This document shows, piece by piece, positions 942 through 55,996 of a stretch of DNA of 64,000 nt (position 1 is the stretch's first letter; every line of letters begins with the position of its first letter). Source of the DNA: Cyanobacteria bacterium SZAS-4. Lineage in GTDB: Bacteria > Cyanobacteriota > Vampirovibrionia > Obscuribacterales > Obscuribacteraceae. A program made the position numbers and the translations under genes. The stretch covers positions 62,001 through 126,000 of the forward strand of contig JAFEAT010000015.1 in assembly GCA_018266255.1 (NCBI GenBank), written 5' to 3'. The notes under the pieces were generated by a model. It saw only the letters and a program-made list of their open reading frames with translations. It made no database searches and was not told the origin of the DNA.

Positions 942-1130
942 ATGAGCGAACTTGAGTCGGTCACTATTGGCGCGCAAATGTGCGACGGTATCGAATGTAA
1001 TACCGAATATGTGGAACTGAATGACACGTTTGACCTGACGCACCAAGCACACGTCAATCTGCAGTCAGATGTTTGCTCAGATGGATTGTGTTCGATCGAA
1101 TGGAAGCCATCACGCGACTCAGCCGCCTGA
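942..1130 (+). CDS. Small protein with C-terminal CxxGxCxxxWKPxR motif
   Basis: 62 residues from the ATG at 942, chosen because GAGG lies 8 bases upstream and because this gives a length like that of the second family member at 55732-55905 (57 residues). In-frame ATG/TTG starts at 906 and 867 are less supported. The body is acidic and polar with a CDGIEC pair near residue 14. The C-terminus VCSDGLCSIEWKPSRDSAA matches VCKNGVCLVNWKPQRPAAA of the other protein in all Cys, Gly, Trp, Lys, Pro and Arg positions and the final Ala pair. No signal peptide or membrane segment. Function unknown; metal binding, a disulphide-closed tail, or a peptide precursor are possibilities, none demonstrated. Confidence 0.6.
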   Translation: MSELESVTIGAQMCDGIECNTEYVELNDTFDLTHQAHVNLQSDVCSDGLCSIEWKPSRDSAA

Positions 1131-1306: not shown

Positions 1307-1363
1307 CAAATGACACGCGGTTGCCACAGATTTGCGTTATATTCAAAGTAAGGGAAATTGAAT

Positions 1364-2623
1364 ATGTTGCAAGAAGAGCGGCCAGACCTGAAGGAGCAGC
1401 TTCAACAGCGCATCGTGGAACTCCAAGAGGAGCTCCACAGCTTGGCCAGCGACATTTCCTACGCGCCCAACGCGAACGCAGTCGACGTCAGCCAGGAATA
1501 TCGAAGCAGCCTCGAAAGATTTCTAGCGGCTGATTCCATCGCCATGCTCCGCTGCACCATTGGTGGCACAGTTATCGATGTAAATCAGGCTTTCACCGAT
1601 ATGATCGGCTATACGAAGGAAGAAGCACTCTCCGGCACATTAGATTGGACCAAGATGACTCCGCCAGGCTGGGAAGCTGCCGATGCCAATGCAATCCAAC
1701 AAATTTTACAGGGCGGCAGTGCTGTTCCTTTTGAGAAGGAATACCTCCACAAAAGCGGTCAAAAAGTGCCGATTATGCTCGCCGTGAGCGCGCTAGACTC
1801 GACTGGCGATGATTGCTTGTGCCTGTTCGTCGACCTCTCCGAGCAGAAGAGGAAAGAAGCGGAACTCAAATTGAGCGAAGCTCAATTCAGATTGCTGGCT
1901 GAATCAATTCCGCAGATGGTGTTCACGGTCGCGGCTAATGGAGTGACCGACTACTTCAACAAACGCTGGGGCGAACTGACAGGTGTTCAACCCACCTTCG
2001 GATTCGAGAACACGTGGCACGAGCTGTGCCACCCCGATGATGTGGAGCGAGTTCAAGAATATTGGAACGGCGCAAAATCTAACAAAACTCCCGTCCAAAT
2101 CGAGTCTAGATACAAACGCAAAGACGGCACCTACGCATGGGCTCTCCAGCGCGCGTTTCCCTTCATCGACGAAGATGGAAACATCGCAAAATGGTTCGGT
2201 ACACTCACTGACATCGATGAGCAGAAGCAAGCCGAGGAAGAGATACGCGCGAGTGAGATTCGCTTTCGCACTCTCGCCGATGCTATTCCGCAGATAGTCT
2301 GGACAGCAGACGGCGATGGGAGAATAGATTTTTTCAACCACCGCTGGTTCGAATACACTGGATTGTCCATCCAGCAGAGCCGTGATGATGGATGGAAACT
2401 GCTGATTCATCCAGACGATCTGCCCGCATACATGAAAGAGTGGGAGAACGCTTTGAAGACAGGCGACACCTATGAAGTCAACTTTCGGTTGAGGCGAGCG
2501 GTCGGCATCAAAAACGGCAGCGACAAGGCTTACAGGCGGCATTTAGGCCGCGCTGTTGCATTAAGGGCAAGAAACGGGCAAGTAATTAAGTGGTTCGCGA
2601 CGTGGACCGAGATTGAGCATTAA
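1364..2623 (+). CDS. Triple-PAS sensor protein without output domain (A)
   Basis: 419 residues from the ATG at 1364, preceded by AAGGGA at good spacing. An N-terminal coiled coil (about 5-30) leads to three PAS/PAC units at about 53-165, 170-288 and 296-419. Each of the last two starts with FR(L/T)LAxxIPQ(M/I)V and carries HPDD and a WFGTLTDI- or WFATWTEI-type PAC end. No histidine kinase, GGDEF, EAL or DNA-binding domain follows: the protein stops right after the third PAC. It may act as a ligand- or redox-sensing partner for a separate kinase, which is inference. The next gene is a paralogue with the same architecture 16 bases downstream, so the two are probably co-transcribed and arose by duplication. 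Confidence 0.85.
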   Translation: MLQEERPDLKEQLQQRIVELQEELHSLASDISYAPNANAVDVSQEYRSSLERFLAADSIAMLRCTIGGTVIDVNQAFTDMIGYTKEEALSGTLDWTKMTPPGWEAADANAIQQILQGGSAVPFEKEYLHKSGQKVPIMLAVSALDSTGDDCLCLFVDLSEQKRKEAELKLSEAQFRLLAESIPQMVFTVAANGVTDYFNKRWGELTGVQPTFGFENTWHELCHPDDVERVQEYWNGAKSNKTPVQIESRYKRKDGTYAWALQRAFPFIDEDGNIAKWFGTLTDIDEQKQAEEEIRASEIRFRTLADAIPQIVWTADGDGRIDFFNHRWFEYTGLSIQQSRDDGWKLLIHPDDLPAYMKEWENALKTGDTYEVNFRLRRAVGIKNGSDKAYRRHLGRAVALRARNGQVIKWFATWTEIEH

Positions 2624-2639
2624 GGAACGAAGTACAATC

Positions 2640-3902
2640 ATGACCATCCGCGATACTTCATCCAAATCTAGCGAACTGCTTTTGCTGCGGGCGAAGATTC
2701 ATGAATTGGAAACGCGGGTGGAGCAAGCGAAACTCGAAAAGAAGTTAGCGAGTGGTGGCTATAAAGAATTCTCGGACAAGGAGCGCTTGCGCCGTTACAT
2801 CGACTCGAACATCGTTGCCATACATCGCGCTGATATCTACGGAAACATCACCGAAGCCAACGACGCGACTGTCAAGTTGCTTGGTTATCCAAAGGAAGAT
2901 TTGTACTCCGGAAAAGTTAAGTGGACACACTTCACACCGCCAGAGTTTCTTCACATGGATAAGGCAGCGATCGAACAACTGCGTGAAACCGGTCGAACAC
3001 CATTTTTTCGGAAAGAATACATTCGCAGCGACGGCAGCCGCGTGCCAGTTTTGGTGCAAGTCACAGCCGTAAATCGCGAGGCGACTGATTGTTTTACGAT
3101 CGTTTTCGATCTCACAGAAAGTGACAAGCTCGAACGTCAATTGCAGGAGAGCGAAAAGCAATTTCGCGCTCTGGCAGAGGCGATTCCGCACATTGTTTGG
3201 ATGTGTGATCCAACCGGCAAAATCGCTTACGCAAACAAGAGATGGTTCGACTTCACCGGATTATCTCCAAACGACCATGAGGGAAGATGGCTCTCGGTGC
3301 TGCATCCAGACGATCGCAAACTATGCTTGCAAGAGGCTGAGCGTGCGTTTCGCACCAATACCGATTTTAATATGGAAATTCGTTATCGTGCGGCCAACGG
3401 CACTTACGTCTGGCATCTCGTTCGCGCACATATTATTGACGATCCAAAAAACGGCGAGAAAATCTGGTTTGGTACCAGCACTGATATCGATGATAAGAAG
3501 CGGGCTTCAGACGAGATCAAGGAGAGCGAAATGCGTTTTCGCATGCTCGCAGATGCGATACCGCAGATAGTGTTTACGGCGAACCCTAACGGCGAGATAG
3601 ACTTCTTCAACGACCGATGGTTCGAATTTACTGGTCTGTCACTGGCGCAGAGTCAAAACAACGGCTGGCAGCTGCTCATCCATCCTGATGACTTGCCCAG
3701 ATACATGAATGAGTGGCAGAAAGCGCTAGATACAGGAGACAGCCACGAAATTGAATTCAGGCTTCGCCGAGCTGTAGGAGTCAAGACCGTCAAGAATCAC
3801 GCCTATCGTTCCCACCTGGCAAGGGCAGTCGCCTTGCGGGGAACCAATGGATCAGTGATCAAGTGGTTTGCCACCTGGACTGAAATCGAAGGTCATAAGT
3901 AG
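2640..3902 (+). CDS. Triple-PAS sensor protein without output domain (B)
   Basis: 420 residues from the ATG at 2640; a TTG at 2613 would overlap the preceding gene. The order matches its upstream neighbour: a short coiled coil (residues 12-40), then PAS/PAC units at about 52-165, 170-290 and 297-420, ending in IKWFATWTEIEGHK. The third PAS units of the two proteins are especially close (DFFN..WFE.TGLS, HPDDLP.YM.EW, FRLRRAVG). No catalytic output domain is present. The pair probably forms hetero- or homodimers that regulate another protein; that partner is not identifiable here, although two PAS kinases are encoded at 10185 and 21894. Confidence 0.85.
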   Translation: MTIRDTSSKSSELLLLRAKIHELETRVEQAKLEKKLASGGYKEFSDKERLRRYIDSNIVAIHRADIYGNITEANDATVKLLGYPKEDLYSGKVKWTHFTPPEFLHMDKAAIEQLRETGRTPFFRKEYIRSDGSRVPVLVQVTAVNREATDCFTIVFDLTESDKLERQLQESEKQFRALAEAIPHIVWMCDPTGKIAYANKRWFDFTGLSPNDHEGRWLSVLHPDDRKLCLQEAERAFRTNTDFNMEIRYRAANGTYVWHLVRAHIIDDPKNGEKIWFGTSTDIDDKKRASDEIKESEMRFRMLADAIPQIVFTANPNGEIDFFNDRWFEFTGLSLAQSQNNGWQLLIHPDDLPRYMNEWQKALDTGDSHEIEFRLRRAVGVKTVKNHAYRSHLARAVALRGTNGSVIKWFATWTEIEGHK

Positions 3903-55473: not shown

Positions 55474-55692
55474 ATGAAAGCGCCTACAGCCGAAAAGAAA
55501 CCCGCATCCTCAAAGAAAAAAACAACAACAAAGAGCTCTGCTGCTGCTTTAGCGATATGTCCCACAAACGGTGCCGGCTGGTGTCCGTATCCATTTACCG
55601 TGGAACAGCTGGAGAGAAGGCTGAAAGAGAAGGCTTTGAGTGCAGCTAGTGCAGCGGCGGAAAAGAAAACTGTCGTCAAATCCGCAAAATAG
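55474..55692 (+). CDS. Small Lys/Ala-rich protein with CPTNGAGWCPYPF centre
   Basis: 72 residues. The ATG at 55474 has AAAGGAGAG 7 bases upstream, a very strong site. The N-terminal 28 residues are Lys/Ala/Ser/Thr-rich (PASSKKKTTTKSSAAALA). The centre is CPTNGAGWCPYPF, then a helix FTVEQLERRLKEKALSA and an Ala/Lys tail. The two cysteines could bind metal or form a disulphide. The Lys/Ala-rich flanks resemble histone-like or DNA-binding tails. Not recognised. It converges with a second small cysteine-containing gene 39 bases away. Confidence 0.65.
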   Translation: MKAPTAEKKPASSKKKTTTKSSAAALAICPTNGAGWCPYPFTVEQLERRLKEKALSAASAAAEKKTVVKSAK

Positions 55693-55731: not shown

Positions 55732-55905
55732 TTAGGCTGCAGCGGGTCTCTGTGGTTTCCAATTAACCAGACAGACTCCGTTTTTGCAGACCGGACCGTT
55801 CTGGCTTTCGTGCGATTCAGTAGCGACTTCGTTTTTGTCGCTGACATTTGCGATTTCGTTGCGGCTTGTTGCTTCGTCGTTCTTTAGAATCTGGTGCGTA
55901 TTCAT
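55732..55905 (-). CDS. Small protein with C-terminal CxxGxCxxxWKPxR motif (second copy)
   Basis: 57 residues from the ATG at 55905, with GGAG 8 bases upstream; an ATG at 55920 is weaker. The body is polar, Glu/Asn/Ser-rich (NDEATSRNEIANVSDKNEVA). The C-terminus VCKNGVCLVNWKPQRPAAA shares the Cys, Gly, Cys, Trp-Lys-Pro and Arg positions with the protein at 942-1130, while the N-terminal parts are unrelated. That pattern, a variable leader and a conserved tail, could fit a processed peptide or a protein-docking tail, though no maturation enzyme is nearby. No signal peptide. It converges with the other small gene. Confidence 0.6.
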   Translation of the reverse strand: MNTHQILKNDEATSRNEIANVSDKNEVATESHESQNGPVCKNGVCLVNWKPQRPAAA

Positions 55906-55996
55906 GATGGGCTCCGTCATACTGATCGTGTTCGGTCTTTGTGCGAGGATAATAGTCCTTTCATATGCACTGGTCGATTGGGGAAATTACTAATGA

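Follow-up and report, generated by a model that had tools for sequence, protein, structure and literature searches.

Two genes for small proteins with a common C-terminal tail lie in the stretch of 64,000 nucleotides that was analysed here (hereafter, the window; G000:C6:62001-126000 in the genome coordinates used). Both had been put forward in the original prediction, and both open reading frames (ORFs) were confirmed (Table 1). At 55732-55905, for which the original prediction named no strand, a stop interrupts the plus-strand reading and the ORF is intact on the minus strand. The assigned starts of P0001 and P0002 are preceded by GAGG-/GGAG-type Shine-Dalgarno matches; the start of P0001 is uncertain, with an in-frame ATG at 906 and a TTG at 867 as alternatives upstream, and for P0002 an upstream in-frame ATG at 55920 makes a longer form possible. 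Promoter and terminator scans at the two genes gave scores near shuffle level. Over the whole gene, pN/pS was 0.36 and 0.63 for P0001 against its orthologues L042 and L053 from two genomes of the same genus, and 0.21 and 0.26 for P0002 against L039 and L040.

Table 1 Family genes and tails in the window and elsewhere in the genome, and recurrent gene neighbourhoods of the family (window positions unless a contig is given)
Feature	Sequence	Position or number of loci	Strand	Remarks
Small protein P0001	MSELESVTIGAQMCDGIECNTEYVELNDTFDLTHQAHVNLQSDVCSDGLCSIEWKPSRDSAA	942..1130	+	62 aa; ORF translation; member of synteny group 6
Conserved C-terminal tail of P0001	CSDGLCSIEWKPSRDSAA	1074..1127	+	C, G, C, W, P invariant in 59 aligned members; 108-member counts
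Small protein P0002	MNTHQILKNDEATSRNEIANVSDKNEVATESHESQNGPVCKNGVCLVNWKPQRPAAA	55732..55905	-	57 aa; member of synteny group 1
Conserved C-terminal tail of P0002	CKNGVCLVNWKPQRPAAA	55735..55788	-	59-member alignment, 108-member counts, AlphaFold2
Genome family member 3		G000:C18:48874-49041	+	56 aa; DNA pattern match
Genome family member 4		G000:C33:307006-307197	-	about 66 aa; DNA pattern match
Synteny group 0		21 loci		adjoins NUDIX gene and DeoC/LacD-type aldolase gene
Synteny group 1		19 loci, including P0002		NCS1-type permease, acyltransferase; divergent protein of no named family in 8 loci
Synteny group 2		13 loci		immediately upstream of metH, same strand, 13/13
Synteny group 3		10 loci		adjoins CusA/CusB-like RND efflux genes
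Synteny group 4		8 loci		between VIT/VWA and FHA genes
Synteny group 6		3 loci, including P0001		upstream of tandem PAS-domain genes
Synteny group 7		3 loci		directly after ECF sigma gene
Synteny group 8		3 loci		after Ppx/GppA

A family of small proteins in the Obscuribacterales

Written as a degenerate DNA pattern, CxxGxCxxxWKP occurs exactly four times in the 6.3 Mb genome and never in the reversed control, and all four occurrences lie in small ORFs whose stop comes 13 aa past the second Cys. The four-member profile matched 47 of the 53 sampled genomes of the order Obscuribacterales (Candidatus Melainabacteria) at E values up to 0.1; a 64-member tail profile matched 47 order genomes with 1–6 copies in each, and the copies, up to six per genome, are unlinked. 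By reading the loci, 108 distinct members were collected, with a median length of about 61 aa and, in most of them, an ATG start with a Shine-Dalgarno match. With P0002 as the query, nine Obscuribacterales/Melainabacteria/Cyanobacteria MAG records were matched in a contig collection.

Outside the order, no member was found either in a search of the class (382 genomes, order included) or in a sample of the phylum (386 genomes), and no relative was found among the viral contigs and plasmids searched. Weak class-level matches (genera g68 and g50), situated inside frames of 125–500 aa and not in C-terminal tails, and the single match in the phylum sample, antisense to a histidine kinase gene, were rejected as chance. 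Pfam, NCBIfam and PHROGs, searched with the full family proteins, returned nothing credible, a PDB search with the tail profile gave chance matches only (e.g. ‘HCEDGVCTVT’ in NF-kB p50), and literature searches turned up no account of the family, nor of a resolving tail that acts in trans. The original prediction had named a lineage-specific family with a signature not previously described, and had proposed that homologues with a kept tail be sought in related genomes; these expectations agree with what was found. The family is real, previously undescribed and, in the sampled genomes, confined to the Obscuribacterales. It should be added that short frames without a database match might be taken for spurious ORFs, but order-wide conservation, purifying selection and starts with Shine-Dalgarno matches leave this a negligible chance, and we count it as already refuted by the conservation at the codon level.

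Conserved tails and divergent leaders

In the 108 members, the invariant core of the tail reads C-x2-G-[VIAL]-C-x-[VLI]-x-W-[KR]-P. Both Cys residues are present in all 108 and the Gly in 106, the following Val in 86 (otherwise mostly I, A, L or M), and the position +2 after the second Cys is V, L or I in 104. Trp and Pro are each found in 100 members, the other eight having Trp-x-Pro with a one-residue insertion; across the 59 aligned members C, G, C, W and P do not vary at all. The two window proteins share CxxG[VL]CxxxWKPxR. The signature first proposed from them also took in the final Ala pair, which is common (46 of the 108 members) and not an invariant part of it. The constrained tail comprises the last ~18 residues of each protein and is under purifying selection (pN/pS of 0.05, 0.18 and 0.39 in three groups), and members differ by about 20 residues in how far the stop lies from WKP.

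The N-terminal parts had been noted to differ, and they do: leaders of different synteny groups align as shuffled sequences would (20.8 vs 20.3) and the 12-residue tails are 57% identical between groups, so that the constrained part is the tail and not the leader. Within the big synteny groups most leader pairs do not surpass the shuffled maximum, and the leaders of syntenic orthologues from different genera are mostly unalignable; inside groups 4, 6, 7 and 8 the leader is conserved. Leaders are polar, on average acidic (mean net charge −1.7), and poor in Cys and Trp, the N-terminal part being free of Cys in 79 of the 108 members. No signal peptide or transmembrane segment was recognised in the 108 members, one of which was over the hydropathy cut.

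In the AlphaFold2 model of P0002 made from the family alignment, mean pLDDT is about 84 in the tail against 50–60 in the leader, with a beta-hairpin in the tail only, its strands 40–41 and 44–45 flanking an Asn42-Gly43 turn. Cys40 faces Cys45 across the hairpin of the model, and a cross-strand disulfide between the two is plausible. The proteins may be small cytosolic, mostly disordered carriers of a single working part, the 18-residue dithiol tail; together with the explanation of that tail favoured below, we put this at somewhat less than an even chance. Segments like CKDGVC/CNDGVC, without the Trp-Lys-Pro, were also seen in other proteins, some of them long (L190, 2906-5632, +; L191, 3494-4255, +; L130, 2357-2581, +; L194, 4962-5144, +), and may be related hairpins or chance.

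Two invariant Cys residues near each other on a predicted hairpin would also suit a metal-binding tail, whose C-x4-C, perhaps in a dimer, would hold Zn2+ or Cu+ in a metallochaperone or a metallothionein-like buffer, and the ten loci of synteny group 3 adjoin a CusA/CusB-like RND efflux system. Each chain, however, offers just two invariant thiols and no conserved His or Asp; a dimer could supply the four ligands that a metallothionein-like or zinc-binding site takes at the least. Furthermore, metal genes are absent from the other synteny groups and the invariant Trp-Lys-Pro is left unexplained, and we consider metal binding improbable.

As regards the extreme C-terminus, the Ala-Ala end of the 46 members compares with 1.3% of 1,190 background tails, counts that are inflated by relatedness, and the genome has a tmRNA whose tag, ANNIVKFPAQRVALAA, ends in VALAA. 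Given this excess and the tag ending, it is plausible that the Ala-Ala end is a ClpXP degron, in which case the many members that bear it would be short-lived ClpXP substrates, like tmRNA-tagged proteins. The likeness to ClpXP Ala-Ala degrons and the ssrA tag is thus found in part of the family ends, the feature not being universal among them.

Gene neighbourhoods

The family loci fall into 13 synteny groups and singletons, as judged from recurrent neighbour clusters and Pfam matches of the neighbours, which are housekeeping genes and differ from one group to the next. The P0002 gene sits between a cytidine-deaminase/NCS1-permease cluster and the gene of a divergent 274-aa protein. Tail-to-tail with it (window 55474-55692, +) is encoded a 72-aa Lys/Ala-rich protein with the core CPTNGAGWCPYPFTxEQLERRLK, which has no Pfam match and is kept beside group-1 members in seven loci. 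Downstream of P0001 (window 1358-3902, +) are two adjacent paralogous multi-PAS proteins, in which Pfam recognises PAS domains only. Two ECF sigma-factor genes, near duplicates of each other on the same strand, flank the group-7 family gene at L055 (G000:C33:302006-312197).

In several groups the arrangement might point to a small regulator specific to its neighbour, a translated leader or co-factor for metH, ECF sigma or PAS genes whose tail senses redox state in cis: metH is next downstream on the same strand in 13 of 13 group-2 loci, an ECF sigma gene is directly upstream in group 7, and the N-terminal parts are conserved within groups 4, 6, 7 and 8. Against this, the nearest downstream gene in the largest synteny group is on the opposite strand, the N-terminal parts of syntenic orthologues across genera mostly do not align, and a tail-to-stop distance varying by about 20 residues is unlike that of an arrest peptide. 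No Rfam regulatory RNA (cobalamin or SAM riboswitch) was detected at the loci of the metH group. We regard regulation in cis as quite improbable; its variant as a ribosome-arrest leader was rejected on account of the variable distance from WKP to the stop and of most downstream genes not being co-oriented. One partner acting in trans is more likely than thirteen partners in cis.

The original prediction had also considered a peptide signal or processed precursor, and proposed synteny with maturation enzymes, exporters or radical SAM genes as a check. Among the 13 groups no maturase, radical-SAM, protease or peptide-export gene was recognised as recurring beside the family, several neighbours having no Pfam match. 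A variable leader with a conserved C-terminal segment in multiple paralogues is indeed what a precursor of a processed or secreted peptide (RiPP or pheromone) could look like, but besides the missing maturase or protease the family lacks a signal peptide, not all members end in Ala-Ala, and up to six copies are unlinked. The pattern is also the reverse of the usual one in RiPPs, where the leader is generally conserved and the core variable. This part of the prediction found no support, and a peptide precursor appears very improbable.

Likeness to peroxiredoxin tails and to known systems

The single typical 2-Cys peroxiredoxin (Prx) of the genome is encoded by a separate gene (G000:C9:141309-141845) and ends GGLCGADWKPGQKPLTV / KTGGLCGADWKPGQKPLTV. 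In alignments this tail corresponds to the region of the resolving Cys in 2-Cys Prxs of solved structure (e.g. 1qmv, ‘EVCPAGWKPG’), and all 30 Prx tails read in the order keep G-L-C-x-A-[DN]-W-K-P-G-Q-K-P. The second Cys of the family with its x3-W-K-P equals this resolving-cysteine tail both in spacing and in C-terminal position, and the family tail adds one Cys upstream. All genomic DNA matches to C-x3-W-K-P were read in frame; at ≤20 aa from the stop in credible genes, they belong to Prx, one redoxin (STGCNIKWKPGNEP) and the four small proteins. Among the 1,190 background tails, which were taken from longer ORFs (≥100 aa) at all loci, C-x3-W[KR]P was found within 25 aa of the C-terminus outside the family only in Prx and in this second redoxin, a thioredoxin-fold protein of the 2ywi/2cvb/3u5r kind with the C-terminal GCNIKWKPGNEP / STGCNIKWKPGNEPTYFGS. 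The same two redoxins head the non-family matches of a family HMM search (E of 0.03 for the best Prx tail, and 0.69), and HHalign of the family tail against the Prx tails of the order gave P = 9.1e-6 and a probability of 83. With PF10417, the C-terminal domain of 1-Cys Prx, one of 64 family tails was matched at E 0.15, below threshold; nothing in the genome was over the curated cut-off, the local Prx tail also falling below it.

Prx was found in 49 of 53 order genomes (22 of 22 good genomes), including some in which no family member was detected (e.g. G004 and G023). With Prx present almost throughout the order, its co-occurrence with the family carries no information. No Prx or thioredoxin gene is among the recurrent neighbours of family members. 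The second redoxin, present in just 28 of the 53 order genomes, was rejected as an obligate partner. It should be noted that the Prx loci were retrieved once the likeness had already been noticed; since the likeness is short and was seen before the test was designed, it is a strong lead, short of a proof of homology.

On the strength of these sequence comparisons, we tentatively suggest that the free-standing dithiol tail docks on the active site of a thioredoxin-fold protein, probably Prx, and works as a dithiol/disulfide switch, a reading that comes close to an even chance without reaching it. The Trp-Lys-Pro segment would dock the tail beside the active-site Cys, the target being most likely the local Prx or the thioredoxin that reduces it. 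Standing in for the resolving Cys, the second Cys would be joined to the oxidised enzyme in a mixed disulfide. This bond would be resolved by the first Cys, opposite on the hairpin, so that the enzyme would be reduced and the small protein would be left oxidised, with a disulfide across its hairpin, until re-reduced by thioredoxin. Such a protein would be a trans-acting resolving or relay peptide that reports or dissipates peroxide oxidation. It may relay peroxide, serve as another point of electron entry or modulate Prx by competition, and the data fit all three. Of the docking, redox or peptide-signal role originally proposed, docking and redox are favoured, since the tail copies the resolving tail of Prx. 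The most specific proposal, that these are order-wide detached resolving tails of Prx, provided with a second Cys and borne on dispensable disordered leaders by several paralogues in each genome, which relay or buffer peroxide in trans on Prx/thioredoxin, is conceivable and on the whole rather unlikely. Oxidation is handed on from Prxs to other proteins in several systems, and a precedent for a Prx that oxidises other thiol proteins is the chloroplast 2-Cys Prx, which acts as a thioredoxin oxidase (PMC6221545).

Several considerations weigh against docking on Prx, among them the recurrent neighbours without a Prx or thioredoxin gene and the Prx-bearing genomes in which no family member was detected. 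This enzyme retains its own resolving Cys and so has no need of one in trans, the E values of the HMM search are weak, and a shared stretch of about 8–10 residues could reflect convergence on another partner, or coincidence. The tail might instead dock some other housekeeping partner (enzyme, chaperone or protease adaptor), its Cys residues being structural, as a hairpin disulfide or buried thiols, and the likeness to Prx coincidental. A fixed tail on fast-diverging leaders suits any single trans-acting partner, the synteny groups have no connection with redox genes, the stretch in common with Prx is short, and the Ala-Ala ends are compatible with protease targeting. However, a C-terminal C-x3-W-K-P is rare by chance, being confined to two thioredoxin-fold redoxins among the background tails, and in Prx its Cys is the resolving one; we judge this alternative unlikely, if still one to be reckoned with. 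Separately, a BCP/PrxQ-like peroxidase (L209, G000:C39:340656-341015, +) has its usual nearby resolving Cys replaced (PGCNKQLSEF) and may be a 1-Cys enzyme that depends on a resolving thiol from elsewhere.

To our knowledge, no small bacterial protein that is a dedicated partner of Prx and copies the enzyme's own resolving tail has been described. If docking on a thioredoxin-fold active site is the function, the tail would be a docking element for such sites that is minimal in size and can be encoded genetically, and it would give access to the redox regulation of uncultured, non-photosynthetic relatives of cyanobacteria. Even if the Prx reading is wrong, there is a family with a fixed tail and drifting leaders across most genomes of the order, absent from the searched libraries.

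Among known systems, typical 2-Cys Prxs (Prx1/AhpC; human Prx2, 1qmv; Anabaena Alr4641) share with the family the Cys-x3-W-K-P at the extreme C-terminus and the Q/R-K/P that follows it, and the local Prx also has the Gly two residues ahead of the Cys. Alr4641, a cyanobacterial 2-Cys Prx, was active as a peroxidase only when neither the peroxidatic nor the C-terminal resolving Cys was missing (PMC4349727). Unlike Prx, the family, whose window members are of 57 and 62 aa and have no Pfam match, has neither the AhpC-TSA domain (PF00578) nor a peroxidatic Cys, and it possesses an extra invariant Cys five residues upstream, in the CxxGxC hairpin. Redoxins of the 2ywi/2cvb/3u5r kind share a C-x-I-x-W-K-P C-terminus and differ in being full thioredoxin-fold enzymes. 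CP12 of oxygenic phototrophs is likewise small and disordered with a C-terminal Cys pair (PMC3906501); the family has no CP12 Pfam match, its motif and Cys spacing differ and its WKP is not CP12-like, and the analogy is one of working mode only.
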